In this document: positions 5,851 through 57,297 of the stretch, piece after piece | Layout: each line of letters starts with the position of its first letter | How positions within the stretch are numbered: the stretch's first letter is position 1 | Assembly (NCBI RefSeq): GCF_020966755.1 | Contig: NZ_JAJKFT010000010.1 | Span: forward strand, 868,001-932,000 | Direction: 5' to 3' | DNA: 64,000 nucleotides | Source: Blastopirellula sediminis | Lineage (GTDB): Bacteria; Planctomycetota; Planctomycetia; Pirellulales; Pirellulaceae | Translations under genes and position numbers: made by a program | The notes under the pieces: generated by a model | Seen by the model: the letters and a program-made list of their open reading frames with translations, nothing else | The model's database searches: none | Told to the model about the DNA's origin: nothing

Positions 5851-5881
5851 AACGCCCTGGTCGTGGGACCAGGGCGTTTTT
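5851..5881 (-). terminator. Rho-independent terminator of fba
   Basis: A ten-base stem AACGCCCTGG / CCAGGGCGTT with an eight-base loop. On the minus strand the stem is followed by TTTTGCGTT, 38 bases past the fba stop. It also has a T run on the plus strand and may work both ways. Confidence 0.8.
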
Positions 5882-25776: not shown

Positions 25777-25920
25777 GGGTGCCGTTGCCACGTCTTCGTG
25801 GCAATGATTGCGGTCTCCAACGCGAATGATCAAACCTCGGGATTTGAGCTGATAAAGGGATTCAACCTTAATCTCTAACTCACGCTCATTCATTGCCACG
25901 AAGACGTGGCAACGGCACCC
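25777..25920. repeat. Family C inverted-repeat element between convergent genes
   Basis: Two perfect 31-base arms (25777-25807 and 25890-25920) flank an 82-base interior. The arm core is GTTGCCACGTCTTCGTGGCA, and each arm contains its own hairpin GCCACG/CGTGGC. The element fills the gap between the cytochrome stop and the stop of the convergent HExxH gene. Only one copy is in the window. There is no transposase. Confidence 0.88.
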
Positions 25921-32206: not shown

Positions 32207-34171
32207 TCACATTTTGTCGACGGTCGAAATCCCGAGTAACGCGAGCCCCTGTTGTATCACCCGAGCGGTCAAATCGCAAAGCAATAGCCGGCTCTGCTTC
32301 TGCTCGTCGGTCTCGGCCTTCAGCACCGGGCACTGCTCGAAGAAGGTCGAATACGACTTGGCCAGCTCTTCAAACAAGTAGCTGGTCAGCTGATTGGGGC
32401 GATAATCGGCGATCGTATCTTGCAGCGCTTCGGGGAGCCGCAGCACTTTCATCGCCAGCGCCCGTTCGGCCGGAGACGAAACGCCGATCTTGGCGCCGCT
32501 GGTGCGGAGCGCCGCAATATCGACTTCGCCGCGGCGGAAGATGCTTTGCACGCGGGCGTAGGCGTACTGCATGTACGTCGCCGTGTTCCCATTGAGCGCC
32601 AACATCTTGTCGTAGCTGAAGACATAGTCGGTCTCGCGATTCTGCGACAAGTCGCCATACTTCAAACCGCCGATCCCGACCCGCTGCGCGACGTCGGCGT
32701 ACTGCTCTTCGCTGAGCTGTCCATCTTTGTCGTTCTCGCGGACGATCTTGTCGGCGCGGGAAACCGCTTCGTCGAGCAAGCCTTCGAGCCCGACCGTGTC
32801 GCCGGAGCGCGTCTTGTACGGCTTTCCATCTTCTCCCATCACCGTGCCGAAGCTGACATGCTTCAGCTCGATGTCGGCATAACCCCACTTCTTCGCCGCG
32901 GCGAAGAGCTTGTCGAAGTGTTCCCCCTGGCGGAAGTCGACCACGTAGAGGATCGCGTCAGGCTTCCATTCGCGCATCCGATATTCGATCGTCGCCAGGT
33001 CGGTGGTCGCGTAGAGGAACGCCCCATCCTTCTTGCGGATGATCATCGGCGCTTTGAAACCGTCTAGGAAGACGCAGAGCGCGCCTTCCGACTCTTCAGC
33101 GAATCCTTTTTCGATGAAGTCGTTGACGACAGGGCCGAGCTGATTGTGATAGAAGCTTTCCCCCAGTTCGTAGTCGAACGTCACGTCGAGCCGCTGATAA
33201 ATCCGCTGAATGTCTTCGCGGCATTTCGGCAGGAACTCGTGCCAGAGGGCGAGGTTTTCTTCGTCGTCGGCGTGCAGCTTGGCGGTCTCGTTCAAGACGG
33301 CCGTGCCGATGTCGGAATGTTCGGCGGCGATCTTGGCGAACTCCGGATCGGCGGCGAGCGCGCTGAGCTTCGCTTCGTCCTTCACCAACTCTTTGCTCGC
33401 ATCCTCGGCTTGACGCTGCAACTTCTCCAGCTCTTTGGTCGCCTTCTTGTCGGCCGCTTTGTCGCCGGTCGGCGGCATCGCCTTCCGCTCTTCGATTTCG
33501 GCCGCCATTTCCATCAGCTTCGACTTGCGAGCCGGCAGCGACTTCTGACCGTCGATGTAGTCGATGATCTTCCGGACTTCGCGATAGAGCCGCGACAATT
33601 CGGCGACCGGGCTTTCGTGATACGCTTCGTTGTTGCGGAAGTGCTTGAAGCCGTAAATGATCATCCCGAACTGCGTCCCCCAGTCCCCCAGGTGGTTGTC
33701 GGTGATCACTTCATGCCCCAGGAAGCGGAGCGTCTTGGCGAGCGAGTCGCCGATCACGGTCGAGCGGATGTGCCCGACGTGCATCGGTTTGGCGACGTTC
33801 GGCGAAGAGAAGTCGAGGACGTACTTCTTCGGCGCTTCGACCAGCGGCACGCCGATCCGCTCATCGGTCACCGCCGCGGCCAGTTGCGCTTCGATCCAGG
33901 CGTCCTTCAGCTTGATATTGATAAAGCCCGGCCCGGCGATTTCGAGCGGCTCGCACATGTCGGAGAGGTCGATTTTCTCGACGATCTCCGCGGCGATTTC
34001 CCGCGGATTTTTCCCCAACTTCTTGCCGAGCGGCATCGCGCAGTTGGCCTGATAGTCGCCGAATTTGGGGTCGTTGGTCGGCCGAATCATCTCGAGCAAC
34101 GGCGCCGTTTCGTCGACCAGCGGGGACAAAACAGCGTCAAATCGACCACGCAGGACTTGCAGAATGTTCAT
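32207..34171 (-). CDS. argS: Arginyl-tRNA synthetase with extra coiled-coil insertion
   Basis: 654 aa against about 560-590 in most bacteria. It charges tRNA-Arg with arginine. Seen are the Arg-S domain at the N-terminus, FSSPNVAKPMHVGHIRSTVIG with the HVGH form of HIGH (131-134), DWGTQFGMI, GKPYKTRSGDTV, and a C-terminal anticodon-binding DALR domain (LPEALQDTIADYRPNQLTSY). The extra length is a charged Lys/Glu/Ala-rich stretch at about 205-285 (KATKELEKLQRQAEDASKEL), predicted coiled coil. The stop is followed within five bases by the methyltransferase. Confidence 0.96.
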   Translation of the reverse strand: MNILQVLRGRFDAVLSPLVDETAPLLEMIRPTNDPKFGDYQANCAMPLGKKLGKNPREIAAEIVEKIDLSDMCEPLEIAGPGFINIKLKDAWIEAQLAAAVTDERIGVPLVEAPKKYVLDFSSPNVAKPMHVGHIRSTVIGDSLAKTLRFLGHEVITDNHLGDWGTQFGMIIYGFKHFRNNEAYHESPVAELSRLYREVRKIIDYIDGQKSLPARKSKLMEMAAEIEERKAMPPTGDKAADKKATKELEKLQRQAEDASKELVKDEAKLSALAADPEFAKIAAEHSDIGTAVLNETAKLHADDEENLALWHEFLPKCREDIQRIYQRLDVTFDYELGESFYHNQLGPVVNDFIEKGFAEESEGALCVFLDGFKAPMIIRKKDGAFLYATTDLATIEYRMREWKPDAILYVVDFRQGEHFDKLFAAAKKWGYADIELKHVSFGTVMGEDGKPYKTRSGDTVGLEGLLDEAVSRADKIVRENDKDGQLSEEQYADVAQRVGIGGLKYGDLSQNRETDYVFSYDKMLALNGNTATYMQYAYARVQSIFRRGEVDIAALRTSGAKIGVSSPAERALAMKVLRLPEALQDTIADYRPNQLTSYLFEELAKSYSTFFEQCPVLKAETDEQKQSRLLLCDLTARVIQQGLALLGISTVDKM

Positions 34172-34250
34172 ACGGCGTAAGGAGTTGGGTCCAAAAAACG
34201 AGAGCGCAAACGGCCATTTTCAGACGATTTCCGGCATTTTACAAGGGCCG

Positions 34251-34412
34251 GGGAATAGAACACGGAGGCCACGGCGGGGAACGCGGCAAGAGACACGGTA
34301 AGAGAGAGGAAGGTATTTAGACGCTACCGGCGAATAACCGAACCTTCAAATCCTCGCTATTTCTTGCGGCGTTTCTTACCGTGCCGAATCCGTGGCCTCC
34401 GTGTTCCATTCC
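34251..34412. repeat. Family B inverted-repeat element, copy 1
   Basis: Outer arms (34251-34273 and 34390-34412) contain AGAACACGGAGGCCACGG with one mismatch between arms. An inner pair CACGGTAAGA (34293-34302) / TCTTACCGTG (34374-34383) extends the fold. The element would form a long hairpin of about 160 bases. A second copy is at 57298-57472. Confidence 0.85.
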
Positions 34413-34458
34413 TCGACCTTCCCCTGGGCGCTGAGGCGATCAGCAACGACACTCAAGT

Positions 34459-34487
34459 GTGAAAAAGGGGTCAGGTCTCTTTTTCAC
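34459..34487. repeat. Short palindrome GTGAAAAAG...CTTTTTCAC
   Basis: A nine-base perfect inverted repeat flanks GGGTCAGGTCT. It lies 34 bases before the lplA-like ATG. I recall very similar GAAAAAGGGGTCAGGTC motifs near REP-associated transposases in other bacteria, but no such gene is here. It may be a mobile repeat or an operator. Confidence 0.55.
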
Positions 34488-34520
34488 GTCTTACGCCTCA
34501 CTCCACCAGACACGCCGCCG

Positions 34521-35240
34521 ATGTACTTGTTCGATCTCACGTTGCCGACGCCGGAGGAGAATCTGGCTCTCGACGAAGCGTTGCTCGAAGCCAACGAGGC
34601 TGGCGAATTGGTCGGCGACGTTTTGCGGCTATGGGAACCGACCGGGCCGCTGGCGGTGATCGGCCGCGCTTCGAGGATCGCCGAAGAGGCGAATCTGCCG
34701 GCTTGTGCGGAGCGAGGCGTGCCGGTCTTTCGCCGGACCAGCGGAGGCGCCGCGATCGTCGCCGGGCCAGGCTGTTTGATGTACGCGGTCACGCTCAGTC
34801 TGGCCAATCGAGAACATCTCCGGGCAATCGATCTCTGCCATCAGTACGTGATGGAGAAGATGCTCGCCGCGCTGTCGCCCTATGTCGAAGGGGTCGCGTT
34901 CCAAGGGACGTGCGATCTGACCTGGAACAATCGAAAGTTCAGCGGCAACAGCCTCCGCGTCAAGCGCGACCATGTCCTTTATCACGGCACGCTCCTCTAT
35001 GACTTTCCGCTGGAGCTCATCGCCGATTGCCTCCGCCACCCGCCGCGGACGCCTGACTACCGCGAGCAGCGCGACCACACGCAGTTCGTCACCAACTTGC
35101 CGATTTCGCGCGAGCAGCTGAAAGCGGCGCTGATCGAAACGTGGGGCGCCGACCAGCCGCTCACCGAATGGCCGCAGCAGCGAACCGCCGATCTGGTCGC
35201 CGAGCGGTATGCAACCGATGAGTGGAACCAGATGCGGTAG
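34521..35240 (+). CDS. Lipoate-protein ligase A-like (BPL/LPL family)
   Basis: 239 aa from the ATG at 34521; the upstream part of the frame is repeat sequence. BPL/LPL catalytic-domain features are LRLWEPTGPLAVIGRAS, FRRTSGGAAIV (the RRxSGG lipoyl-AMP loop, 71-80), GCLMYAVTLSL and NRKFSGNSLRVKRDHVLYHGTLLYD with the catalytic Lys139. It should attach lipoate or octanoate to E2 or GcvH domains, or act as an amidotransferase. No lipoyl-domain protein is near. The accessory C-terminal domain of E. coli LplA is absent. Confidence 0.85.
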   Translation: MYLFDLTLPTPEENLALDEALLEANEAGELVGDVLRLWEPTGPLAVIGRASRIAEEANLPACAERGVPVFRRTSGGAAIVAGPGCLMYAVTLSLANREHLRAIDLCHQYVMEKMLAALSPYVEGVAFQGTCDLTWNNRKFSGNSLRVKRDHVLYHGTLLYDFPLELIADCLRHPPRTPDYREQRDHTQFVTNLPISREQLKAALIETWGADQPLTEWPQQRTADLVAERYATDEWNQMR

Positions 35241-35250
35241 CGTCACGCGC

Positions 35251-35390
35251 AATACTAGCCCGAGGCGCGAGCCGAGGGAATGTGCGCGAACCTATCGAAA
35301 AAGACACTATCCAGCGCCAGCCGCAAATTGGTTGCGACCTCTTCCCCGCAACCCACCGCATTCCCTCGGCTCGCGCCTCGGGCTAGTATT
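35251..35390. repeat. Family A inverted-repeat element, copy 2
   Basis: Perfect 31-base arms (35251-35281 and 35360-35390) with core CCCGAGGCGCGAGCCGAGGG. The 78-base interior carries GTGCGCGAACCTAT, then GCCGCAAATTGGTTGCGACC, both repeated in the copy at 38894. It follows the lplA-like stop by ten bases and precedes the sigma-factor gene. Confidence 0.93.
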
Positions 35391-35515
35391 TCCCCGCTTT
35401 CCCCATTCCAAAAAAACTTTTCCCTTGCAGAAAGGTTTTCCGCTCTCGCGTGTCTTACCATAGGAGGGCAATCGCCTTCGCTCGCTCTTCTCCCACGCAT
35501 GAAGCGACTTAAACC

Positions 35516-36118
35516 TTGCCGCCACTTCCAGATACGCGCGAAACGCTGATCCGCCGGCTGCCGGACGCCGCTGATGTGGAAGCGTGGGACGCATTTATCG
35601 AGATTTATGAGCCGCTGTTGTTTCGGCTCGCGCGGAGCAAAGGGTTTCAGCAAGCCGACGCCGAGGACTTCGTCCAGGAAGTGCTAGCCGCGGTCTCCAA
35701 AGCGGTCGGGCGATGGGTCGACGACGAAAATCGCGGTACGTTCAAGGCCTGGCTGTTTCGCATTGCGCAAAACATGGCGATCAACTTCATGACTCGGCCG
35801 CGGCATCAACGACTCGGATCGGGCGACAGCCAAATCGCCGGCCTGCTTGCTCAGCATCCTGATCCCAGCAGCGAGTCGACGCAGATGTTCGCCCTCGAAT
35901 ATCGCCGCGAACTCTTTCGCTGTGCGGCGGAGCAAGTTCGCACGCAAGTCAACGAGCGGCAATGGCAAGCGTTCTGGAAGTCGAGCGTCGAAGCGCAGCC
36001 GATTCCGGAAGTCGCAGCGGAGTTAGAAATGAGCGTCGGCAGCATTTACATCGCGCGGAGCCGGATTACCAAACGGATCCGCGAAAAGATCTTCTTCCTT
36101 GAGGAGCAATCACGATGA
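35516..36118 (+). CDS. ECF-type RNA polymerase sigma factor
   Basis: 200 aa from a TTG start; no ATG is available in frame and no Shine-Dalgarno is clear. Region 2 reads IYEPLLFRLARSKGFQQADAEDFVQEVLAAV, and WLFRIAQNMAINFMTR closes it. Region 4 is EVAAELEMSVGSIYIARSRITKRIREK, a helix-turn-helix. This belongs to the planctomycete ECF groups associated with protein kinases. Its last codon overlaps the kinase start (ATGA), so the two are translated together and the kinase probably controls it. Confidence 0.92.
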   Translation: MPPLPDTRETLIRRLPDAADVEAWDAFIEIYEPLLFRLARSKGFQQADAEDFVQEVLAAVSKAVGRWVDDENRGTFKAWLFRIAQNMAINFMTRPRHQRLGSGDSQIAGLLAQHPDPSSESTQMFALEYRRELFRCAAEQVRTQVNERQWQAFWKSSVEAQPIPEVAAELEMSVGSIYIARSRITKRIREKIFFLEEQSR

Positions 36119-37566
36119 CGATCGGCTCTTCCCACTGCAGCGACGAACATTTTTTGCTGTTGCTCGACGGAGATGAAACGTCATTGGAGTTTCGCACCGC
36201 GGCCGAGCATGTCGAACATTGCCCCACGTGCCAACAGCGTTTGACGGAACTCTCCGGCGATCATGACTTCTGGCAGACGCAGCGTCAGCTCTTGAGCCCG
36301 GTCGAAGATGATCAAACCAACACCGGCGAGCTCTATCGTTACCATTCGATCGAAACGAATGTCGCCGAACGCCGCGGCGCCGTCGAAACGCTGGTCCGCG
36401 ACATGCTCCAGTCGCCATCCCATCCCGAAACGCTCGGGCGACTCGGCCGCTATGAAGTGGAACGAATCATCGGCGTCGGCGGGATGGGGATCGTGCTGAA
36501 AGGGTTCGATACCGAACTGCATCGCCCCGTCGCGATCAAACTGCTGGCGCCCCATTTGTCCCGGATCGGCGCCGCGCGGCAGCGATTTGCTCGCGAAGCC
36601 CGCGCTGCGGCGGCGGTCGTGCATGAGCATGTCGTCCCGATTCACAACGTCGAGTCGAACGTCGACCATCCTTATCTGGTGATGCAATACATCGCCGGGC
36701 AATCGCTGCAGGCCCGCGTCGACGAGTCGGGCCCGTTAAGCGTTTCCGAGATCCTGCGAATTGGCATGCAGGCCGCATCGGGACTCGCCGCCGCTCACGC
36801 GCAAGGTTTGGTTCACCGCGACGTCAAGCCGGCGAACATCTTGCTGGAGAATGACGTCGACCGCGCGTACCTGACCGACTTTGGGCTCGCCCGCGCTGCG
36901 GACGACGCCAGCTTGACCTATACCGGCGTCGTCTCCGGCACGCCTCATTACATGTCCCCCGAGCAAGCGGACGGGCGGCCGCTGGATCATCGCTCTGACC
37001 TGTTCAGTCTCGGCTCGGTCCTCTACTTCATGGCGACCGGTCACCCACCGTTTCGGGCCGAACGCCCGATGGCGGTGCTCAAAAGAACGTGCCACGACCC
37101 GCATCGTCCGGCGATGCAGGCCAACGCCGAGATCCCGGAAGAGCTGTCGGAAACGATCGATCGCTTGCTCGAAAAACAACCCGACCGTCGCTTCGCCACG
37201 GCCGCCGACTTGCAGAAGAAGCTGGAGCGGATGCTGGCCGACTTGCAGCAAGGGAAGCTGCGACTAAGACATGCACCGCTTGTTCGCCCTTGGATACTCG
37301 GCAGCGCAGCCATAACGGCGCTGGCGCTGTTCGTGCTGATGGGAATAACGTTCTACATTACCGCCGGTGTGACTCGTCGACCGGCCGATCCAGGACGCCG
37401 TTATCCGATCGTCAACGACAGCGTCGAGTCGATTCAGGCTCGCCTCCAAGCGTTGGAAGGACCAAGCCAAGTCGAGTTGGACTCGCTTCGCTTTCAATTG
37501 AACTCACTGGAAGAGATCCCATTCCCCGAAACGGATTTGCAGGAACGAAATGATGCTCAAAACTAA
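36115..37566 (+). CDS. Transmembrane Ser/Thr kinase with anti-sigma-like zinc head
   Basis: 483 aa. The head has a zf-HC2-like H-x3-C-x2-C (His32, Cys36, Cys39) as in anti-sigma factors. The Hanks-type kinase domain spans about 113-370: GVGGMG loop, catalytic Lys142, HRDVKPANILL (234-244) with catalytic Asp236, DFG (255-257) and GTPHYMSPEQADG. One membrane segment (393-415) is followed by a short extracytoplasmic tail with a coiled coil (about 430-475). It overlaps the sigma-factor gene by four bases and the next gene by 17. Likely a signal-driven regulator of its sigma factor. Confidence 0.93.
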   Translation: MTIGSSHCSDEHFLLLLDGDETSLEFRTAAEHVEHCPTCQQRLTELSGDHDFWQTQRQLLSPVEDDQTNTGELYRYHSIETNVAERRGAVETLVRDMLQSPSHPETLGRLGRYEVERIIGVGGMGIVLKGFDTELHRPVAIKLLAPHLSRIGAARQRFAREARAAAAVVHEHVVPIHNVESNVDHPYLVMQYIAGQSLQARVDESGPLSVSEILRIGMQAASGLAAAHAQGLVHRDVKPANILLENDVDRAYLTDFGLARAADDASLTYTGVVSGTPHYMSPEQADGRPLDHRSDLFSLGSVLYFMATGHPPFRAERPMAVLKRTCHDPHRPAMQANAEIPEELSETIDRLLEKQPDRRFATAADLQKKLERMLADLQQGKLRLRHAPLVRPWILGSAAITALALFVLMGITFYITAGVTRRPADPGRRYPIVNDSVESIQARLQALEGPSQVELDSLRFQLNSLEEIPFPETDLQERNDAQN

Positions 37567-38878
37567 GTGGAATCGTTGGGTCGCGGCGGCGACGTCGTTG
37601 TTACTGGTCGGCGTTACCTACGTCGCACTCTTCGCCCAAGAGCAAGATGCCAAGCCAACGGCAACGCTGACCGCCAAGACGTTGACCATCCAAGGTAAAC
37701 CGAACGAGCCTGACACGTTGATTTTCGTTTCGGGCGAGGAGGGGGGCATTACGCTCAAAACCGAGCAGTCGCCGACTGCGGCGGAAGACGAAGCGGTCAT
37801 CCGTGTGCCGCTCGATTCGAACACTTTTCCCGGCGAGTGGCTGAATCACAACAAAGGGAATCGAGCGATCTTTCTGTTCGCCGAAGGGACCGGCATCACC
37901 AAACAATCGGTGGGAACCCATCGGATCGGCAGCCTCTATGAGATTCGAGAGTTCACGCCGAAGTCGCCCAGCGATAACGTCTTGCTGGTCACATTGGAAA
38001 TCGTGCATCAAATCAATCCCAAGACCGCGGCGCACATCGCTGCCGGCGAGCAGAAAGAAGTCGACGACTATCACGCCAAAAAGTTCCGGTTTCTCCTCCG
38101 CGGCCTTGTGCCGTTGGGCGAACCAATTCCGGATGCGACGGCGCCGATCAATTACCCACGCGATCCCTCGGCATTTCCACCGCAGATGATGCCGATGCCA
38201 CCAGCTGCTGCTAGTCCGAACTTTTCGATTCCGGCCTCTGGATTTCCGACGACTTCTCCGCCGATTACCGCGGCCGTTCCCCAACAGAAGGCATGGTTTG
38301 AAATGCGCCCGAAAACGGAATTGCCAGCGACGGGAACCGCCGCGCCGCATACGTCGGGTCGTTGGGTACCAGGCGAAGTGGCGCCTCCCCATCTCGTGTA
38401 TGAGCCAAAGTCTCCGCCGGTCTCCCATGCTCCTCCAACGTCCTACGCAGCGCCGATCGCAGTCCCCACCAATTTTCCGGCGTCCGCAACCCTTCCCCCG
38501 TCCCCCTACGCAACTCTCGGGCAATATGGTTCGCCCCCTGTCTACTTCCCGCACGCCGCGCCGATGTCCCCCTCCATCATTCCTTCACCGCGGGGCAACG
38601 CGATGCAGGCCGCGATCACCAAGTTAGAAGGGGCGAAGTCAGACGAGGAAAAGGAAACGGCTCGCACCGAACTGCGTAAGGTCCTGACCGAAATCTTCGC
38701 CGCCGATATGCAAAATCGGGACAAGCAGGCGGCCGACATCGAAGCTCGCGTCAAGAAACTGCGCGAGCAGTATGACGCTCGCGAGAACGCCAAGGACGAG
38801 ATTATTGAGCTGCAACTGAAGCTGCTTGAGAAACAGGCCGAAGGGCTGGAGTTTCCTGGCAGCGGACCAGCGCGGTAG
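37550..38878 (+). CDS. Exported Pro-rich protein with C-terminal coiled coil
   Basis: 442 aa, starting MMLKTKWNRWVAAATSLLLV with a signal or anchor segment ending near AQEQ. The first 150 residues are beta-rich and contain TKSVGTHRIGS-like and HQINPKTAAHIAAGEQKEVDDY elements. Residues about 205-345 are Pro/Ala/Ser-rich and disordered. The C-terminus (about 350-440) is a charged coiled coil (EKETARTELRKVLTEIFAADM). No family recognised. It is the third gene of the sigma/kinase operon and may be its extracytoplasmic sensor or its target, by position only. Confidence 0.75.
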   Translation: MMLKTKWNRWVAAATSLLLVGVTYVALFAQEQDAKPTATLTAKTLTIQGKPNEPDTLIFVSGEEGGITLKTEQSPTAAEDEAVIRVPLDSNTFPGEWLNHNKGNRAIFLFAEGTGITKQSVGTHRIGSLYEIREFTPKSPSDNVLLVTLEIVHQINPKTAAHIAAGEQKEVDDYHAKKFRFLLRGLVPLGEPIPDATAPINYPRDPSAFPPQMMPMPPAAASPNFSIPASGFPTTSPPITAAVPQQKAWFEMRPKTELPATGTAAPHTSGRWVPGEVAPPHLVYEPKSPPVSHAPPTSYAAPIAVPTNFPASATLPPSPYATLGQYGSPPVYFPHAAPMSPSIIPSPRGNAMQAAITKLEGAKSDEEKETARTELRKVLTEIFAADMQNRDKQAADIEARVKKLREQYDARENAKDEIIELQLKLLEKQAEGLEFPGSGPAR

Positions 38879-38893
38879 CGTAGCGAAAAAATA

Positions 38894-39025
38894 GTAGCCC
38901 GAGGCGCGAGCCGAGGGAATGTGCGCGAACCTATTGAATAAGGCGTTATCCGTTGCCGGCCGCAAATTGGTTGCGACCTCTTCTCGGCTACATGCCACTT
39001 TCCCTCGGCTCGCGCCTCGGGCTAC
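38894..39025. repeat. Family A inverted-repeat element, copy 3
   Basis: Perfect 26-base arms (38894-38919 and 39000-39025). The 80-base interior matches copy 2 in GTGCGCGAACCTAT and GCCGCAAATTGGTTGCGACC, with substitutions elsewhere. It begins 15 bases after the Pro-rich protein stop. The sharing of the interior shows that whole elements, not just arms, have been copied. Confidence 0.93.
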
Positions 39026-39079
39026 GATGTGTCCGGCTTCGCTTGCGAAGCCGGCATTTTTCTTTTCTTGGGCAGCTTG

Positions 39080-39454
39080 ATGGCGCATCGACATATTCAA
39101 CCGCGGAAGGATGAAACGTTTCTCTCCGTCGAGGAAACCAAAACGCGGTTATCGCTGGCGTTCCCGGAATGCGTCTTTGATGACCAGCAAGGAACGGAGA
39201 TCGCCGACACGATGATCGCCAAGCTCGAGCAACTGCGCGCTCCGGCCGACCTGCTCGCCTTTTATTACGACCGCCGCGACGAAGCGACGCGGTGCTTTGT
39301 GTCTGACTCGTCGATCTCTGCGGAAGGGGTTCAGTTCACCCTGTGGCGCGACGGGCCCCTCTTCATCGGTTTCCATTCGGCTTCGCACGAAGAAGCGACG
39401 TTGCCGCTGCTCGATCGAATCGCCGCAGCGCTCGACTATGAGGTGTCTTGGTAG
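39080..39454 (+). CDS. Hypothetical small protein, 124 aa
   Basis: Starts at the ATG at 39080 (MAHRHIQPRKDETFLSVEET). No signal peptide. It is strongly acidic, with VFDDQQGTEIADTMIAKLEQL and FYYDRRDEATRCFVSDSSI, and ends ALDYEVSW. It looks like a small mixed alpha/beta fold. No family recognised. It lies alone after a family A element. Confidence 0.6.
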   Translation: MAHRHIQPRKDETFLSVEETKTRLSLAFPECVFDDQQGTEIADTMIAKLEQLRAPADLLAFYYDRRDEATRCFVSDSSISAEGVQFTLWRDGPLFIGFHSASHEEATLPLLDRIAAALDYEVSW

Positions 39455-39813
39455 TGGGGCGCCAGGCGCAGGCCGACGCCGATTTGATTTCACGTTCCAG
39501 TTAACGGCAAGATTTTTCGCCTCACAGGGGGATCGAGGGGGCTTTTCTCAATTATTTGCGCGTTTTAACCCGTTGTCTGATTGCGGGTTACGTCAATGCC
39601 TCGTTCAGGGCGCTGACTCGCTGTGTGGCCGTTGTTACAATTGGCCGAACTGGAAATGTCCCGGAGTAACGTAGGCTTTTAATTCCTTTACGGCAGTTTA
39701 CGCAGTCGTCCCCCAACTTCTTTACCCAGCGTCTTAGCCTACAGACCGGTTTCGTCACTTGCGGCGAATTGAGCAAACCACATTTATCCTGACGCACTAG
39801 CTTCTTAAGACAT
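39455..39813. other. 359-base leader region upstream of rpe
   Basis: No gene is seen. It contains an inverted repeat TAACCCG (39566-39572) / CGGGTTA (39584-39590) with an 11-base spacer, which could be an operator or a weak hairpin, and an AT-rich stretch near 39670. The region should carry the promoter of the rpe, phosphatase-like and accD cluster. Confidence 0.6.
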
Positions 39814-40500
39814 ATGTCACGCGACCACCTAGCTCAGCTTCGTGAAGCTGCGCCTGTTATTCTCCCCTCGCTCTTGTTGTGCGACTTCGCCAACTTGGAG
39901 CGTGAGGTTGAGCGCTTGCTAGCAGCCGGCGTGAAAGCTCTGCATCTGGATGTGATGGACGGCATATTTGTCCCAAACATGACCTACGGAATGCCGATTG
40001 TCGCCGCGTTCCGAAAATTGACCGATCTGCCGCTCGACGTTCATTTGATGATCGAGAAGCCGCAGCAGTACATCCGACAATTCCATGAGGCAGGCGCCGA
40101 CGTGATCACCATTCACGCCGAAGCTGTCGATGACGTCGCTAGCACCTTGCGAGAAATCCACTCTCTGGGCTGCGGCGCCGGCGTGGCGATTAATCCCGAC
40201 ACCCCGGTCGACGTCATCTTCGACGCCCTGCCCGAGGCGGATCTCGCGTTAATGATGAGCGTCAACGCCGGTTTCGGCGGTCAGTCGTTCAATCCGGTCG
40301 CCCTCGACAAAATCCGAGAGGTACGGCGGATCAATTCCGACGTGCTGATTGAGATCGACGGCGGCGTAAATTTGGATACTATTGGGCGCTGCACGGAAGC
40401 GGGCGCAGACTTGTTGGTAGTCGGGTCGGCCATTTTCGGCAAACCGGACTACATCACGGCAGTCCGCGACCTGAATTCGGCCGCGGTCGCCGCCTCCTGA
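39814..40500 (+). CDS. rpe: Ribulose-phosphate 3-epimerase
   Basis: 228 aa. Interconverts ribulose-5-phosphate and xylulose-5-phosphate in the pentose phosphate pathway. Seen are LPSLLLCDFANLEREVERL, HLDVMDGIFVPNMTYG with catalytic Asp46, DVHLMIEKPQQYI with the metal-binding His77, the phosphate-site MSVNAGFGGQSF (the usual Pro is Ala), and EIDGGVNLDT with the second Asp. It is followed after 22 bases by the phosphatase-like gene and then by accD, so a three-gene operon is likely. Confidence 0.96.
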   Translation: MSRDHLAQLREAAPVILPSLLLCDFANLEREVERLLAAGVKALHLDVMDGIFVPNMTYGMPIVAAFRKLTDLPLDVHLMIEKPQQYIRQFHEAGADVITIHAEAVDDVASTLREIHSLGCGAGVAINPDTPVDVIFDALPEADLALMMSVNAGFGGQSFNPVALDKIREVRRINSDVLIEIDGGVNLDTIGRCTEAGADLLVVGSAIFGKPDYITAVRDLNSAAVAAS

Positions 40501-40522
40501 TCAGCATAGGTGTAGCTTTTAT

Positions 40523-41107
40523 ATGTTGCGCGTTGCGCTCATTCGTCCCGGCTGTACCGACTACGACATACAAGGCCGGATCCGCGGCACGTTAAACGTT
40601 CCGCTTAGCGACAAAGGTATTACTCAGGTCCAGCACGCGGCCCATGAGATGGCCGATCTCTCGATCGACGTCGTCTACTGCGGCCCCTGCCAACCGGCGG
40701 TGCAAGCGGCCGAAATCATCGCCAAGGTCCACATGGCCAAGGTGAAAAAGATCGACAAGTTTCGGAACCTGGACGTCGGACTGTGGCAAGGGAAACTGAT
40801 CACCGAAGTGAAGCAGAACCAGCCGAAAGTCTATCGACAATGGCAGGAAAACCCGGATGGCATCTGCCCACCTGAGGGAGAGATGCTAGCGGACGCTCGT
40901 AGTCGCGTACGGACCGCCCTGGACAAGATTTGTAAGAAATATCAAAACTCAAAAAGCGTTGCCGCGATCGTAACGCCCGAGCCGATCGCGTCGGTGATTC
41001 GCTGCGAATTGCTACATCACTGCATCGGCGACCTTTGGAAAGCCGAAGAAGGTAACTGCGGCAGTTGGGAACTGATCGAAATCTCCCCCCAACCCGCCCT
41101 TCGTTAA
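40523..41107 (+). CDS. Phosphoglycerate-mutase-fold protein with both catalytic histidines lost
   Basis: 194 aa, histidine phosphatase superfamily by layout: VALIRPGCTDYDIQGRIRG in place of the LIRHGET start, PLSDKGITQVQHAA, CQPAVQAAEIIA, NLDVGLWQGK and PPEGEMLADARSRV. The phospho-acceptor His is Pro9 and the later His motif is VTPEPI. Both residues needed for phosphate transfer are gone, while Arg8 and the GES-like region remain. It may bind a sugar phosphate or protein without hydrolysing it. The coding frame is intact, so it is not a pseudogene. It sits between rpe and accD. Confidence 0.85.
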   Translation: MLRVALIRPGCTDYDIQGRIRGTLNVPLSDKGITQVQHAAHEMADLSIDVVYCGPCQPAVQAAEIIAKVHMAKVKKIDKFRNLDVGLWQGKLITEVKQNQPKVYRQWQENPDGICPPEGEMLADARSRVRTALDKICKKYQNSKSVAAIVTPEPIASVIRCELLHHCIGDLWKAEEGNCGSWELIEISPQPALR

Positions 41108-41158
41108 TTAGAATAAAAGTACCGCCACTGTCGGCGGCAACAGCCAGAAGGAAATCGA

Positions 41159-42019
41159 ATGTCGTCGACTACGCCTGAGTTCGCCGCCGCTGCAGCCGCC
41201 GCCGAAGGTGTCAAACGTGCCAAACGCGGAGTGCCGGAAGGTCTGTGGCAACGCTGCCCCGGATGCCAGGCGGTGATCTTCCGCAAGCAAGCCGAAGAAT
41301 TGCTCAGCGTTTGTCCCGAATGCGAACATCACTGGTACGTCTCGGCCGCCGATCGCATGGAGCAAGTGCTCGATAGCGGCACCTTCGAAGAGTGGGACGC
41401 CGAGCTGATGCCGACCGACCCGCTCAAGTTCGCCGACCAAAAGAAATACGCCGATCGCCTGGTCGCGGAACAAAAGCGAACCGGTCTGCGTGATGCGGCC
41501 CTGACCGGCTGCGGCATGATTCGCGCTCGTCGCGTCGCCATCGGCGTCACTGACTCGGCCTTCATCATGGGAAGCATGGGTTCGGTCGTCGGCGAACGTC
41601 TCGCTCGCCTGGTCGAACGAGCCGCCGATCAAAACCTGCCGCTCATCATCATCAGCGGCTCCGGCGGTGGAGCTCGTATGCACGAAGGGATTCTCTCCCT
41701 GATGCAGATGGCCAAGGTAACCGCCGCGCTGGCTCGCTATCACGAAATGGGCGGTCTGTTCATTTCGGTTCTGACCAACCCGACCATGGGCGGCGTCGCC
41801 GCCAGCTTTGCGTCGCTGGGGGACTTGATCTTCGCCGAACCGAAAGCGCTGATCGGCTTCGCCGGCCCGCGTACGATCAAAGCGACCATTCGCATCGAAC
41901 TGCCGGACGGCTTCCAGACCAGCGAATTCCTGCTGGAACATGGTTTCGTCGACCGCATCGTCCCGCGTGCTCGCCTGAAGAGCGAAATCGCCCGCGCGAT
42001 CGACTACTGCGGCAAGTAG
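41159..42019 (+). CDS. accD: Acetyl-CoA carboxylase carboxyltransferase, beta subunit
   Basis: 286 aa. With AccA it transfers CO2 from biotin to acetyl-CoA, giving malonyl-CoA for fatty-acid synthesis. The N-terminal zinc ribbon is CPGCQAV...CPECEHH (Cys33, 36, 52, 55). The crotonase-like core shows [49 protein letters not shown] and [15 protein letters not shown], both oxyanion loops intact. No accA lies in the window. A strong terminator follows 48 bases after the stop. Confidence 0.96.
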
Positions 42020-42067
42020 TCGGTAGGGCAGGCCGTGCCTGCCTTTACAAACACGCGTTCAAAACAA

Positions 42068-42097
42068 AGGCTGGGTTTCGACCCAGCCTATTTTTTT
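42068..42097 (+). terminator. Rho-independent terminator of accD
   Basis: Stem AGGCTGGGT / ACCCAGCCT with a TTCG tetraloop, then A and seven T residues. It closes the rpe-accD operon. Confidence 0.95.
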
Positions 42098-42205
42098 GCG
42101 CGGGAAGGAAACAACCTGCCTGTCAGTCGCCGCGAGATTTCCCAGACAACCACTTCAGATTATGATGGCCATCGCTCGGTACTAATTCCGCCAGGGAAAT
42201 CGCTC

Positions 42206-43621
42206 ATGCGAATTGCGATCTCAACCGCCGTCATCCTCGTCGCCGCGCTCTTACCATGGATCGGCGCGTGCAATATGCAGTCGGACGAACCGACCGACGA
42301 AGCCGAAACTGTCGCACCATCAGCTGTGCCCGATTTTCCTAAATCTCATCGAGTCGCGTCGCCTGACGAAATCCAGACGCTGATCGACCAGCTTTACGTT
42401 CCTGGCGACGATCGTAATCGAGTCTCGCGTGTAAAGTCGCTTGGCACGCAAGCCATCCCGCTATTGATCGCAGAATTGAGTTCGGAACGGGCATACTCTC
42501 AAAAGTTTCCGATGCCAAAATTCCCTCTGGATGACGAGTGGGCGTTCACTCGCCTTTGCGACGCCCTGGAAGAGACTTCTCCATCCGCCGCGGCGAAACC
42601 GCTTGCCAGATTTGCAACGCATCCTGCCGCGGAAGTCCGACGGAACGCGGCCATTCTGCTCGGAAAGATCGGCACGGAAGAATGCGTCAAGCCGCTTACG
42701 ACGCTGCTGGCCGACGATGATGACCAGGTTCGCGGCTGGGGAATGCTGGGAATTCAACGTGGGCTCGAGGAAGGACGTCGTGACGAGAAGTTTCTGCAAG
42801 CGATCTTCCCGGCGCTAGAGCCGCTACTGGCACTAGAAGATAGTTCGGTAGATGACGAAGCGCCTGGACTGCTGTTGACCATCGATCGTCAACGCGCGGT
42901 CGCCGCCATCCTGAAGAGTGAACGGTTCAATTCGGCGAACATCCAGTTCGCATCCAATCTAAAAGCGCTGAATGAGCTGCAAATATCGGTCCCACACGAA
43001 TTGTTGTTGCCGCAACTCTCGCAGCTGGAGCCAATCAGCGGCGAATTCCCCCACATGTATAACTTTTCTGAGGCGCTCATCGCTTACGCCCGCAACCCAG
43101 ACGCGAACGCCAAAGCGTATTTGCAGAAGCAGCAGAGCGAAAACGAAGATGAAATGGTTCGCGAATACGCCGCCAAAGGATTAGCGATCCTGGACGGCGT
43201 CGACGACGCGGAAGAGTTCATTACGCTTCACTACTACGACGTCGGCTTTGAAAAGTTAACGGCGGAACAGCAGAACTACATCGCGGTGCGGAACTACGAA
43301 CTGGAGGTCGGCAGCGGCGGACATGATCAGTACTTCGTCAATACCAGCGGCGATGAAATTCAAATCGCCCATCGGGGCCTGATGGCGATCGGAGCGATAA
43401 AAAAGGGGAAGGTGCTTGCGGCGGCAATTGCGTTGTTCGGTCCGTCCGGCCCTGCCGTCGATCAAGATGCGAGAATTGAGCAAATGGAGCGGTTTTCGCC
43501 AAAGCAAGATGAGCAATTCAACTCGCTTGACGATCAGTTCTATGAAAACGAAGAGGTGATCCCTGAGATGCTTGCGGATTACGTCTTGGAAAACAAATCC
43601 CACTTCGCTCCCGCGAAATAG
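42206..43621 (+). CDS. Lipoprotein with HEAT repeats and a DMP19-like C-terminal domain
   Basis: 471 aa from the ATG at 42206, with CAGGGAAA upstream. The signal ends IGAC, a lipobox. Residues about 40-300 carry HEAT-like repeats (EVRRNAAILLGKIGTEECVKPL, then DDDQVRGWGMLGI). The last 140 residues match DUF4375/DMP19: EKLTAEQQNYIAVRNYELEVGSGG, QYFVNTSGDEI, AHRGLMAIGA. DMP19 in Neisseria is a DNA-mimic protein, but fusion to an exported HEAT lipoprotein makes DNA mimicry unlikely here. Function unknown. Confidence 0.82.
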   Translation: MRIAISTAVILVAALLPWIGACNMQSDEPTDEAETVAPSAVPDFPKSHRVASPDEIQTLIDQLYVPGDDRNRVSRVKSLGTQAIPLLIAELSSERAYSQKFPMPKFPLDDEWAFTRLCDALEETSPSAAAKPLARFATHPAAEVRRNAAILLGKIGTEECVKPLTTLLADDDDQVRGWGMLGIQRGLEEGRRDEKFLQAIFPALEPLLALEDSSVDDEAPGLLLTIDRQRAVAAILKSERFNSANIQFASNLKALNELQISVPHELLLPQLSQLEPISGEFPHMYNFSEALIAYARNPDANAKAYLQKQQSENEDEMVREYAAKGLAILDGVDDAEEFITLHYYDVGFEKLTAEQQNYIAVRNYELEVGSGGHDQYFVNTSGDEIQIAHRGLMAIGAIKKGKVLAAAIALFGPSGPAVDQDARIEQMERFSPKQDEQFNSLDDQFYENEEVIPEMLADYVLENKSHFAPAK

Positions 43622-43756
43622 CGCAGCTACTGCGTTCTCTATCCTGTTTCTCTACCGCCGATGTCGGTTTTCATCCAATAACCCCAAGCGGTTAGCGAAC
43701 TACTTGATGGTTTTTGGGAAAGCGTAAAATGATTCTAGGCGCAATGGCTTCGCAAC

Positions 43757-44503
43757 ATGGCAGTTGATGCAATGGTCGAAATCACGACTCGCCCGATGAA
43801 CCAAGCGGAGCGGGACCTGCTCCAACGAGAGTCTCGCTCTCTGGGAATGGGGTTCGCCATCGTGCTGTCGTTTCTCGCCTTGCTAGGGGGCGGTTTTCTC
43901 TCGGCGCTGTTGCGGGGCATCGGTCAGCATTTCGGGCCGACGCACTCGCTATTCGCTTACTGGATCGGCTGGGCGATCGCGGTCATTCTCGGCGCCTTCG
44001 CGGCGCGGGCCTATTTCGCCGGCGAACGGCATCGGACCGAAGAGGCGCGGCTCGATCTGGAGAACAGCCAGGTCGAAGAGATCCTGGTGATCGACGCCGA
44101 TGTGGTCGAGATCAGCATCGACGCGTTGGAAGAGCCGGCCCTCGTCTTTCGTCTCGATGAAAGACGTCTGCTGCTGTTGCAGGGGAACTGGCTCTTCAAC
44201 GGCGAAACGTACGGAGCCGACTCGGATCGCAGTCTGGACGATATGGACCCGGAGTTCTTCAACGGACTGCGCACTCCCCATTCGTTTCCTTCTTCCAGCT
44301 TCGTCGTGACGCGTTTCCCACTTTCGCGACAGATTGCCGCGATTCGAGTCGATGGAGAGTATGTCGCGCCGCGCACTCTTCGTGTGAAATATGCGGAGAA
44401 GCATTGCTCGGTGCTGAGCGACTGCGAGATTTTCCCCGGCACGCTCCACTCGTTAGAACAGTCGCTTGCCGACGCCCACGACGCCGTCAGGAACGAAACG
44501 TAA
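43757..44503 (+). CDS. Membrane protein, first of a tandem paralogous pair
   Basis: 248 aa. Two membrane segments are visible (SLGMGFAIVLSFLALLGGGF and LFAYWIGWAIAVILGAFAA). A cytosolic domain follows, with VEEILVIDADVVEISI, LVFRLDERRLLLLQGNWLF, and FPSSSFVVTRFPLSRQIAAI. The next gene has the same layout and shares the patterns VEEI.V..ADV, ALVF and the FPS..FV..RFP block, so the pair arose by duplication. Overlapping or abutting stops and starts suggest co-translation. Function unknown. Confidence 0.75.
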   Translation: MAVDAMVEITTRPMNQAERDLLQRESRSLGMGFAIVLSFLALLGGGFLSALLRGIGQHFGPTHSLFAYWIGWAIAVILGAFAARAYFAGERHRTEEARLDLENSQVEEILVIDADVVEISIDALEEPALVFRLDERRLLLLQGNWLFNGETYGADSDRSLDDMDPEFFNGLRTPHSFPSSSFVVTRFPLSRQIAAIRVDGEYVAPRTLRVKYAEKHCSVLSDCEIFPGTLHSLEQSLADAHDAVRNET

Positions 44504-44504
44504 C

Positions 44505-45236
44505 ATGTCGAAATTTCATCGTCGCGCTGCGACGGAACAGGAATTAAAAATCCTGGCCAAGCAAGCGGAAACGGGCAAAGTGTCGTATGGCTGCATGACG
44601 GTTCTGTTTCTGATCGTCCCGGCAGCGATCCTCTATTTCCTCGGCGATTGGTTCGGCGCCATCATCAGCCCGGAAGCGGCGAGAATTGGTCGCTGGACCT
44701 TGCCGACGCTCGCGCTGGTTCTATATCTGGTCATCCTCCGCGAAGTTATTCAGTCGGCGAACAAACTCCGCGCGCAGATTCAAAGGGATCTGGATCACCA
44801 GGAAGTCGAAGAGATCCGCGTCACCAACGCGGACGTCGGTTTGATCGGATCAGCCCGACCGAATAGCAACCACGCTCTCGTCTTCGGCATGCCCGATCGA
44901 CGGCTGCTGTATGTGAAGCTGCTGCCGGAGCTGTTCGAACCGACGACCTATGGCGCGAAAGACGACGCCGCCGTCGCCAAAGGAGACGTGCTGAATCGTC
45001 TCGCGGCGCCCTATTCGTTTCCCAGCACCGAGTTCGTCCTCCGTCGTTTCCCTTATTCCGGGGCGCTGCTCGGAATCGATGTCGAAGGAGACTACGCACC
45101 GCCGCGCAACTTGCGACCGAGTCTGCGCAACGTGCAGCTCTTCCGCCCCTCAGAGATATTTACGGGGGCGATCGACAATATCACCGAGGTGATTGAGATC
45201 GAGCAAGCGCAGCGGAAGCGGGGCGATTCGCTATAG
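44505..45236 (+). CDS. Membrane protein, second of a tandem paralogous pair
   Basis: 243 aa from the ATG at 44505, one base after the previous stop. N-terminal TEQELKILAKQAETGKVSY, two membrane segments (CMTVLFLIVPAAILYFLG; LPTLALVLYLVILREVI), then a soluble domain with VEEIRVTNADV, HALVFGMPDRRLLYVK and FPSTEFVLRRFPYSGALLGI. It differs from its partner mainly in the loop sequences. No family recognised. Confidence 0.75.
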   Translation: MSKFHRRAATEQELKILAKQAETGKVSYGCMTVLFLIVPAAILYFLGDWFGAIISPEAARIGRWTLPTLALVLYLVILREVIQSANKLRAQIQRDLDHQEVEEIRVTNADVGLIGSARPNSNHALVFGMPDRRLLYVKLLPELFEPTTYGAKDDAAVAKGDVLNRLAAPYSFPSTEFVLRRFPYSGALLGIDVEGDYAPPRNLRPSLRNVQLFRPSEIFTGAIDNITEVIEIEQAQRKRGDSL

Positions 45237-45248
45237 ATCCGCAATCAT

Positions 45249-45400
45249 TAGTAGCCCGAAGCGCAAGCGAGGGAAATGCGGTCTCGATGAAATGACAAGT
45301 GCCGAAGCTCGAATGACGAACCCTCTCTACCTCATCATTCTGATTTCGACATTCGTCATTTAGCCAAACGCATTTCCCTCGCTTGCGCTTCGGGCTACTA
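45249..45400. repeat. Family A-like inverted-repeat element, diverged copy
   Basis: Perfect 32-base arms (45249-45280 and 45369-45400) with GCCCGAAGCGCAAGCGAGGG in place of the usual arm, and a different 88-base interior. It separates the tandem membrane pair from the convergent dehydrogenase gene. Confidence 0.9.
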
Positions 45401-45410
45401 TGCGCGGAGT

Positions 45411-46376
45411 TTAACCCAACACTTCCGGGTTTCGCACATTCTCCGGCGTGCGTCCTTCCAGCCAATCGACCACTTGCTTCGTCGCGCGGCCGCGGAGGTT
45501 CTCCAGCGATTCGACCGACACGAACGCTGCGTGCGGCGTTACGATCACGCGGGGATCGTTCATCGGGGCCTTCGACAGATCGGGCGGTTCCGGATCTTGC
45601 ACGTCGAGCGCCGCGCCGGCGAGTTCGCCTGCTTCGATCGCCGCGGCCAGCGCCGCTTCGTCAATCAGCGCGCCACGCGCGGTGTTGATCAGATAGGCGG
45701 TCGGTTTCATCTTCTGGAACTGCTCGGCGCCAAACATGTGCCGCGTTTCGGCAGTCGCAGGGACCAAGAGCGAGATGTAGTCCGATTCGCTCAAGATCCG
45801 TTCCAGATCGACCGTTTCGACGCCCGGCATCGTCTTGCCGCTGCGGCTGGTGGCGATCACGCGCATGCCGAGCGCCAGCGCTCGTTCGGCCAACAGCGTG
45901 CCGATCTGTCCCAGGCCGACGATCCCGAGCGTTTGTCCGCTTACTCGCCGCATCAGCGGACCGGCCTGCAGTTCGTACCGCCCGTTCTGCGTTTCGTAGT
46001 GGTACATCGCAATCTTCCGGGCACACGCCAACAGCAGCGCCAGCGTATGTTCGGCGACTTCGATCACGCAGTAGTCAGGGATGTTGGTGACCGGGATCTT
46101 TTTCTCGGTGCAGTAGGCGACGTCGATGTTGTCGAGCCCGATGCCAAGCCGCGCGACGATTTTCAAGTTGGGCGAAGCGGCGATCACCTTGGACGTAACC
46201 TTGGCCCAGTTGGTCATGATCGCGTCGACTTGATGTTCGGCGGCGAGAGTCGCCAGCGTATTCTCATCGGTCTGCGTGGCGACGATCAGCTCGACGTCCG
46301 CCTTGTCGAGCGTTTGATGCTCGATCTCAAGATCTTTCCAGGCAAAGTCGGTCAGCAGCGCTTTGAATTTCGGCAT
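45411..46376 (-). CDS. D-isomer-specific 2-hydroxyacid dehydrogenase
   Basis: 321 aa. Family features are the substrate-domain start, LKIVARLGIGLDNID, the Rossmann motif LGIVGLGQIGTLLAERA, NTARGALIDEAALAAAIEAG, LDVQDPEPP and TPHAAFVS with the catalytic His region. The catalytic Arg is in ARGALIDE and the Glu in the LDVQDPEPP loop. It reduces or oxidises a 2-hydroxyacid with NAD(H). The lack of an ACT domain argues against SerA. It stands alone, convergent with the tandem membrane pair. Confidence 0.92.
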   Translation of the reverse strand: MPKFKALLTDFAWKDLEIEHQTLDKADVELIVATQTDENTLATLAAEHQVDAIMTNWAKVTSKVIAASPNLKIVARLGIGLDNIDVAYCTEKKIPVTNIPDYCVIEVAEHTLALLLACARKIAMYHYETQNGRYELQAGPLMRRVSGQTLGIVGLGQIGTLLAERALALGMRVIATSRSGKTMPGVETVDLERILSESDYISLLVPATAETRHMFGAEQFQKMKPTAYLINTARGALIDEAALAAAIEAGELAGAALDVQDPEPPDLSKAPMNDPRVIVTPHAAFVSVESLENLRGRATKQVVDWLEGRTPENVRNPEVLG

Positions 46377-46459
46377 GGCTCGATCGGCAGGGTAGGGGAG
46401 GATGGGGTCAAGGAGCCCATTCTAGCGGATCGCCGCCGTCGATCCTACGCGGCGAAGCG

Positions 46460-47557
46460 TTACTTCAGCCCTTGAATGTAGCGCAGGAAGCGGGCTTCGA
46501 GCATCTCCCAGTTGCTGCCAAACGCCGATTCGAAATCGGCGATCCGCTGCGCTGCAGAATAGTCCGATCCCGGCGGTCGGGCTGCGACGGTCGAGAGATA
46601 GCGGGCGAAATTGCGGGGATCAGTTTCGACCAGGTAGAAGCAGACCGCCCACGATTCGCTGTAAGCGATGTCGGGACGTTTCCCGAAGATCTTGTCCGAC
46701 TCAATCAGCGACTTCAGCGAGCCGCTGGGGCGCGACTTCGCAGCGTAGTCTTGAAACCAATCAAGTCGACCACGATTGATCCGATCGCTCGCACGGCGAT
46801 AGACTGCCGAGTTCCAAACGCCCGGCGCTTCGAACATGGTCGCCAACCCTTCGACAACCCACTTCGGCTGGATCGCCGTCCGGCTATGGATGCCAGCGTT
46901 GAACGCCGTTTGGTGGGTCGCCTCGTGGACCATCGTCGCGGCGTTCTCTTCCCAGAATGCGTCATCCTCCTGGCCGGCCGAGATGTCGTACATCAACACA
47001 CGGTTGGTCCGTCCCGAATAATAGCCGACCATCCCCGGCGTCACGCGGACCCCCAGCTTGGCCGAATGCTTGGCATATTCGGCGAAGGTCGGAAAGACGA
47101 CGGCGACCAGGGGAAACTGAGCCGGAGCGACCCGAAAGCCGCGGCTGGTGAAATATCCCTGGAACGAGCGATGGAGCTCTTCAAAGCGGTTGGCCCAGCG
47201 ATCTCGCTGCCCCGGAGGGTGAACCACCAGGTAATGGCCGGTGCCGGTCACTTCAAACTGGTTCCCAAACTCCCGGAGAAGCTCTCCACGGACCTGCGAC
47301 TGGCTGAGGGGAGTAAATCCGTCCGCGACCTTGGCGTAACTCTCCGCCTCGCTGGGAGCGAATTCCCAAATCTGCCCATCTACCCCCAGCACCAGCACCT
47401 TCTCGGCTGAGTTGAATAGAGAGGTTCCCACCACTTCCTGACCGTCCAGGTCAAATCGGAAGGTCCATGACTGGGCATCGACCTGGCTGCTGCTCCCTAA
47501 TCCGGCGATTAGTGGCAGAAAAATAAACAGCCACTTATGGGGGAGAAGTTTTTTCAT
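46460..47557 (-). CDS. Secreted DUF1570 (peptidase-like) protein
   Basis: 365 aa with signal peptide MKKLLPHKWLFIFLPLIAGLG. The middle reads YLVVHPPGQRDRWANRFEELHRSF and VFPTFAEYAKHSAKLG; the active-site-like ATMVHEATHQTAFN (HExxH, His211, Glu212, His215) is followed by WVVEGLATMFEAPG with the likely third ligand. This is the DUF1570 arrangement, a gluzincin-like zinc-peptidase family frequent in planctomycetes. It is divergent from the next secreted gene, with about 170 bases between starts. Confidence 0.85.
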   Translation of the reverse strand: MKKLLPHKWLFIFLPLIAGLGSSSQVDAQSWTFRFDLDGQEVVGTSLFNSAEKVLVLGVDGQIWEFAPSEAESYAKVADGFTPLSQSQVRGELLREFGNQFEVTGTGHYLVVHPPGQRDRWANRFEELHRSFQGYFTSRGFRVAPAQFPLVAVVFPTFAEYAKHSAKLGVRVTPGMVGYYSGRTNRVLMYDISAGQEDDAFWEENAATMVHEATHQTAFNAGIHSRTAIQPKWVVEGLATMFEAPGVWNSAVYRRASDRINRGRLDWFQDYAAKSRPSGSLKSLIESDKIFGKRPDIAYSESWAVCFYLVETDPRNFARYLSTVAARPPGSDYSAAQRIADFESAFGSNWEMLEARFLRYIQGLK

Positions 47558-57286: not shown

Positions 57287-57297
57287 CTTCCGAGAAG

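Follow-up and report, generated by a model that had tools for sequence, protein, structure and literature searches.

A stretch of 64,000 nucleotides (nt) of the Blastopirellula sediminis genome (positions 868001-932000 of contig C10 in a 7.05-Mb genome of ten contigs, hereafter the window) carries intergenic inverted repeats, the clearest example lying at 35251-35390, and there is little doubt that these repeats are REPINs, that is, inverted pairs of repetitive extragenic palindromic (REP) sequences that form non-autonomous single-strand transposons with cognate HUH transposases. The family is of a known kind, in which REPINs accompany transposases like those of class 3; this variant of it uses several tags and shows turnover in place. 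This reading is carried by the anatomy and copy number of the repeats, by transposase genes with matching arms, by empty sites in related species, by the absence of target duplications and by a position beside stop codons.

In each element a spacer, in most cases 80-110 nt long, is enclosed by two REP hairpins in inverted orientation, and a short tag (GTAG, CTAG or CTAA) stands on the 5' side of each hairpin. When the locus becomes single-stranded the REP would fold, a HUH/tyrosine transposase encoded elsewhere would recognise the tag and the hairpin and nick near the tag, and the strand would then be rejoined with no target duplication left. The arm subtypes probably each depend on a separate transposase lineage, the gene of which is bracketed by matching arms, and the insertions would persist mostly just beyond stop codons. 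We infer recognition, cleavage and movement in trans from what parts of the work on IS608 and TnpA_REP describe (PMC8266576, PMC3116915).

Anatomy and copy number

The copy at 35251-35390 has arms with a GG body and a CTAG tag on both sides, the left arm (35251-35282, forward strand) consisting of AATACTAG and the hairpin CCC-GA-GGC-gcga-GCC-GA-GGG and the right arm (35359-35390, reverse strand) being its inversion, 100% complementary over 32 nt. The copy at 38890-39028 also has a GG body, with a GTAG tag on both arms, and pairs 38884-38923 with 38996-39035 (40 nt, 88% complementary). A third, at 45249-45400, has GA arms with a GTAG tag (45249-45280 against 45369-45400, 32 nt, 100%) and a palindromic interior of 7-mer repeats, and a fourth, at 5702-5840, has a GG body with CCAA and CTAA tags (5704-5730 against 5813-5839, 27 nt, 96%); the REPINs as such are given no strand. 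A lone REP arm with a GG body and an ATCGTAG tag stands at 5613-5643 on the forward strand. The inverted arms that a first-pass annotation of the window had described at these places are thus real. Each REP arm begins with a 5' tag that stays unpaired and continues as an imperfect hairpin, the inner stem of which is shorter in GA and CA arms. When folded with DNA parameters, isolated GG, GA and CA arms give the CCC..GGG hairpin with the tag free, and the whole 35251, 38890 and 45249 elements each give a single long hairpin.

The 35251 and 38890 copies are 83% identical across 151 nt, 63 of the 80 positions of their interiors being equal, and about ten other REPINs align to this pair over most of 140 nt, arms included, at 70-75%. 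The interior blocks which the annotation took to be shared are strongly so between these two copies and only these, the interiors of most sampled REPINs being different. Across the window there were no Rfam matches at the gathering threshold, nor did a scan for tRNA and tmRNA find any.

The genome-wide search that the annotation had called for found many copies, with 165 exact occurrences (86 + 79) of the 17-nt core TAGCCCGARGCGCRAGC and none (0 + 0) of its reversed control. Of 29 relatives searched, all three congeners (G001, G002 and G003) have the exact core, at 20-27 sites each; the 15 genomes from the family's other genera lack it, and one of the 11 from the order's other families has it, at 2 sites. 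In its exact form the arm is close to genus-specific. A survey of 1.544 Mb of the genome, made up of two contiguous C10 stretches (1.144 Mb, 39 REPINs) and of C2 and C4 stretches that were largely selected for arm content, called a REP at up to five mismatches to any of three templates. It gave 184 REPs that form 58 REPINs, 28 of them with GG/GG arms, 13 GA/GA, 12 CA/CA and 5 mixed. The spacing of the two inverted REPs is constrained, with 48 of the 58 measuring 126-162 nt, and none was scored within a called gene, gene positions here and below coming from a simple gene calling of our own. At C10:715312-715831 five direct REPs lie 96-98 nt apart, together with one that is inverted.

The start of the arm is conserved as approximately AA(T/C)A(C/G)TAG, often with a C before it. 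The 116 REPIN arms carry the tags CTAG (50), GTAG (37), CTAA (18) and others (11), and with GTAG on 37 of 116 the arms mostly lie outside the GTAG REP superfamily as defined by that 5' tag. Tag and body are linked, with GTAG on 26 of 30 GA arms, which never have CTAG, and CTAG on 25 of 26 CA arms; GG arms have CTAG, CTAA or GTAG. The named tag is identical on the two arms of 19 of the 28 GG/GG REPINs, a figure that becomes 20 in the shuffle test, where one 'other'/'other' pair is added, and that none of 10000 shuffles reached (mean 8.3). Similarity of left and right arms within a type exceeds shuffles in GG (12 of 10000 reach it), with 9253 and 5162 of 10000 reaching it in GA and CA. Homogenisation of the arms by hairpin-templated correction was considered and rejected, the signal being confined to GG and following the GG tag subtypes, with no support beyond subfamily descent. 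Covariation in REP stems of planctomycetes, sought with a quick pattern, was too noisy to be used; the outer three positions paired in 45 of 180 cases (shuffles mean 29.3, maximum 42), and the reversed control of the pattern gave 45 sites vs 230.

Transposase genes with matching arms

A search of the genome with Y1_Tnp, the one transposase family covered, gave 11 matches, nine of them above the cut-off, and none of the 11 genes lies in the window, in which the annotation had likewise seen no transposase. Three of the 11, all IS200/RAYT-like HUH genes, are bracketed by inverted family arms, namely L035 (GG/GTAG), L038 (GA/GTAG) and L040 (GG/CTAG), and the congeners have at least three more bracketed genes: L285 in G002 has GG/CTAG arms, L284 in G003 has CA/CTAG REPINs and L286 in G001, a split gene, has GG/CTAA. 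Family arms also adjoin the gene pieces L289 and L292 (G002) and L296 (G003). The annotation's suggestion of looking for a TnpA_REP whose ends match the arms was borne out, TnpA_REP-like genes of this kind being present in the genome itself and in its congeners.

The transposase genes of the genus form one clade (support 98/97) that includes a trio without REPs, G003 gene L293 falling outside it. Within the clade the GG/CTAG genes of two species pair (99/89), the GG/CTAA gene comes next with weak support (93/66) and the other branches have no clear order; arm subtype goes with transposase lineage. The proteins carry the HUH and Y----Q motifs, with T19, W20, N94, H97 and Y153 among the invariant columns of an alignment of 44 rows and Q158 present in at least 90% of them. 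In 46 relatives a regular expression found HUH in 45 and a strict form of Y----Q, requiring D, N or E next, in 29. For the GA transposase, the structure predicted by AlphaFold (mean pLDDT 92.3) matches IS608 TnpA, ISDra2 TnpA and the E. coli REP-associated tyrosine transposase (RAYT) 4er8 with E values of 2e-4 to 5e-4 and TM scores of about 0.5. Against Pfam Y1_Tnp, L035 and L038 score above the cut-off and L040 falls narrowly short. On NCBIfam REP_Tyr_transpos, which has a curated cut-off of 80 bits, L038 scores 21.6 and neither L035 nor L040 appears among the matches at E 0.01, which leaves all three short of the mark for standard RAYTs; the REP-less L036 scores 23.3 and another Y1 gene, L034, 96.1.

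More widely, 80 relatives were kept of 199 from a scan of genome contigs, 78 of them titled as planctomycetes and two as 'bacterium' alone. Inverted arms (score at least 20) surround the gene in 48 of the 80, compared with 9 of 400 mismatched flank pairs. The tags of these relatives are, on a noisy pattern count, mostly other NNAG forms (CAAG, TGAG, CCAG, TTAG).

The long-branch clade members at C10:1368161 (L295), G001:C1:362895 (L290) and G003:C1:190099 (L288) have no family REP close by. They keep the HUH and tyrosine region, and as the downstream flank aligns in all three they occupy a shared locus; on these grounds they are possibly a domesticated RAYT. A different inverted-repeat element in the window, at 25777-25920, has 34-nt arms GGGTGCCGTTGCCACG... 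that by eye look like the GGGTGCCACTGG arms flanking L034, a standard RAYT.

Empty sites and evidence for mobility

For a comparison of synteny, C10 468001-932000 was set against the fetched syntenic parts of G001, with C3 56001-74000 left out. Of 31 REP clusters, 12 have REP-like sequence at the orthologous place, 11 were scored as without it and 8 have no colinear match. The tightest empty sites are 700902, 903256 and 725485, where G001 has 22, 27 and 84 nt between the flanks and no arm. Site 903256 is the 35251 copy of the window, and at its orthologous site there is no family arm in any of the three congeners, which is the empty site that the annotation had proposed to look for. Among the other sites without REP-like sequence, 471080 and 492046 hold other repeats in G001, and at 559658, 715312 and 913252 the unaligned flank exceeds 500 nt.

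The transposase genes give a second such case. The GG/CTAG unit of B. sediminis, from REP to REP, lies within about 770-790 nt that do not align to the congeners, which have 86 (G001), 146 (G003) and 144 nt (G002) between the same flanks and no REP. As the unit is absent from all three, it appears to be mobile itself. Neither of the outcomes that the annotation had held to speak against a mobile element, a lack of further copies or copies always conserved as terminators, is what was found. Between C10:835139 and 847273-850042 a segment of about 12 kb has the opposite orientation to that in G001, and its breakpoints fall at REP clusters.

Position beside genes and the weighing of alternatives

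Convergent gaps hold 30 of the 58 REPINs, tandem gaps 27 and divergent gaps 1, when convergent gaps offer 34.5 kb of intergenic bases and divergent gaps 81.5 kb, and the nearest stop is at a median distance of 15 nt (within 30 nt in 39 of 57). The annotation had placed every full copy just after a gene stop, which holds for 35251 (11 nt from the stop at 35240), 38890 (12 nt, 38878) and 45249 (13 nt, 45236), the 5702-5840 copy instead lying 79 nt past the stop (5919) of a minus-strand gene with a terminator-like stem between. These positions fit purging from genes and promoters, and we infer that survival bias placed the elements beside stops.

The same positions could suggest that the repeats are transcription terminators or 3'-end stabilisers of mRNA that are held by selection and do not move, and terminator-like matches in 33001-46500 do exceed shuffles (27 against 16.1, standard deviation 4.4), with three of these stems within arms, at 35365 on the plus strand and at 38912 and 38915 (both before a T-run) on the minus strand, and a further stem within an arm at 5726 on the minus strand. 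This reading is nevertheless very unlikely. The 35251 element is missing from all three congeners, the same arms bracket transposase genes, and two of the elements have a separate candidate terminator beside them: a stronger hairpin with a T-run at 39033-39054 (plus strand) lies just past the 38890 REPIN in the direction of the upstream gene, and a terminator-like hairpin at 5849-5880, given no strand, adjoins the 5702 REPIN. Termination as the main role is neither needed nor supported, although it is quite possible that the elements affect transcription or mRNA as a by-product. The annotation had also likened the repeats to a replicated non-coding unit of the miniature inverted-repeat transposable element (MITE) or REP type, and it is the REP half of this comparison that stands. 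A length of about 140 nt, near-perfect terminal inverted repeats and no evident coding capacity would suit classical MITEs moved by a DDE transposase, yet none of the 58 REPINs has identical flanks of 5, 6 or 8 nt at any of four boundary offsets, as a target-site duplication would give, and the arms are themselves hairpins that bracket HUH/Y1 genes, which reduces the MITE to a negligible prospect.

It might also be proposed that an ancestral element has been kept by descent, so that the species differ through point mutation and decay and not through transposition or exchange. This agrees with the retention of REP-like sequence in G001 by 12 of the 23 alignable clusters, of which 7 also agree in best arm type, but we consider it highly improbable in the light of the sites without an element (700902, 725485, 903256), the absence of the transposase unit from all three congeners, the 5 of 12 shared sites at which the best arm type differs and the independence of interiors from arm type. 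The retained sites do count against REPIN mobility as the preferred reading, as do several other points. Two of the 11 'empty' sites, 560760 with a truncated REP and 38890 with a decayed right arm, hold a remnant in G001 on reading, leaving 9 of 23; 68 of the 184 REPs have no partner; 17 of 52 loci have an interior and no arms; none of the Y1 genes of B. sediminis was found between CA arms, though CA REPINs are common in this genome; and movement, excision and binding are deduced from sequence. Because 12 of 23 sites keep REP-like sequence and two more hold remnants, many insertions are old.

Turnover in place and shared interiors

Less expected than the elements themselves are near-identical interiors in different arm types and orthologous sites that hold a unit, a REPIN or a lone REP. 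The best arm type differs from G001 at the shared sites 607149, 669985, 719179, 766097 and 873617, where the intervals compared at 607149 and 669985 both include over 500 nt of flank that does not align, and the one at 669985 depends on an arm with 5 mismatches as well. Site 719179 is occupied by a GG/CTAA REPIN in B. sediminis, by a CA REPIN in G001, by a complete GG/CTAG transposase unit in G002 and, in G003, by a lone REP of the same GCCGAAGG variant as the G002 unit. The site that holds the GA unit in B. sediminis is filled in G002 by a REPIN whose arms are GG-like on one side and CA-like on the other and in G001, by eye, by a GTAG-tagged REP split by another insert, and none was seen in G003. 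Within the window, the 38890 junction in G001 has a different interior next to its one decayed right arm (by eye), the site orthologous to 45249 has a CTAG-tagged REPIN in G003 with none seen in G001 and G002, and the 5613 locus has REP-like arms in all three congeners.

In the G001 and G002 orthologues of 5613-5840 the REP-like arms bracket a gene that by eye is phosphatase-like and is not at this place in B. sediminis. The G003 orthologue of 5613 (L168) and G001 L306 contain a different element, with arms that start TTTTGA(A/G)GTTGCGC, and by eye the two species have it inserted into a REP at an identical position, after GCGCAAG; the L168 insert has GGCGCAAG on both sides and carries a CTAG-tagged REPIN (by eye).

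One cluster of 7-mer palindromes makes up 22 of the 58 interiors and spans all three arm types, and the window pair itself has sister interiors, enclosed by CTAG arms in the 35251 copy and by GTAG arms in the 38890 copy. Among 20 matched-arm cases the nearest interior agrees in arm type in 8, a value reached by 1330 of 5000 shuffles (mean 6.1). The strongest case for a switch of arms is 621980 (CA) against 700902 (GA), which are 94% identical in the middle and 76% and 73% in the outer 33 columns; these two and 705362 share ATGGATTCGG beside the right arm (by eye). As proof of arm switching the interiors are weakened by a count of 52 loci with the 7-mer palindrome and GTAGGGTGGGTGG-type interiors, 26 of which have both arms, 9 one arm and 17 none, and because interiors exist without arms, different arms may have captured them independently. 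Stand-alone GTAGGGTGGGTGGAGCAAGCG / GTAGGTTGGGTGCAGCG elements at C10:1243846, C2:141528 and elsewhere look like a second GTAG-tagged family, and related sequence forms the interior of two family REPINs (471080, 1507000). The window also has a third repeat with ACACGGAGGCCACGG arms, at 34246-34418 and 57294-57472.

A tentative idea, which we hold to be possible and rather less than probable, is that resident REPs are docking sites at which a transposase swaps REP-bounded cargoes (a REPIN, a full unit or a lone REP) in a natural form of cassette exchange. If such cassette-like exchange does occur, interiors would hop between transposase systems and both arms would change type together.

Comparison with known systems

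REPINs are described as inverted REP doublets with a spacer that form single-strand hairpins, are intergenic and have cognate RAYT genes (PMC3116915). The inverted doublets, hairpins, intergenic position and cognate transposase are shared with what that paper says of REPINs in Pseudomonas fluorescens and other RAYT genomes; compared with those REPINs, the doublets here are longer, the tags mostly other than GTAG, and several arm types share interiors. REPs of the GTAG type, as far as the portion of the account used here goes, are palindromic, with an unpaired 5' tag, often paired and mostly downstream of genes, and have been reported in Planctomycetes (PMC3733652); the architecture and the placement downstream of genes are shared, but the tag is GTAG on only a minority of the REPIN arms.

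Class 3 TnpA_Y1 is, in the sections of the source drawn on, found mainly in Planctomycetes, with atypical REP-like structures around the gene that sometimes reach high copy number (PMC6006769). The transposases resemble this rare class by features (HUH and Y----Q motifs, planctomycete hosts and REP-like structures flanking the gene), and by eye the CCGA before the inner stem of GG and GA arms may correspond to the class 3 CnGA foot (PMC6006769). Those sections give copy numbers, and no REPIN pairs, empty sites or arm switching. In 'orthoswitch', the excerpt at hand states, REP classes change beside orthologous RAYTs and abundant REPs occur where the RAYT is absent (PMC3686654). Different REP classes at orthologous positions and abundant REPs lacking a RAYT are common to both cases, whereas orthoswitch as set out there concerns REPs flanking syntenic RAYTs and the present family also involves dispersed REPIN sites and interiors shared across arm types. 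A literature search for REPINs in Blastopirellula found nothing.

There is as yet no settled account of how REPINs spread. Across four genomes of this genus, each of at least five arm types brackets a transposase gene in one genome or another, and an intergenic spot may be occupied by different elements in different species, so that specificity, arm switching and exchange are open to direct testing. To the flanking structures and copy numbers described for transposases of the class 3 kind, the family contributes REPIN pairs and a transposase unit that appears to be mobile.

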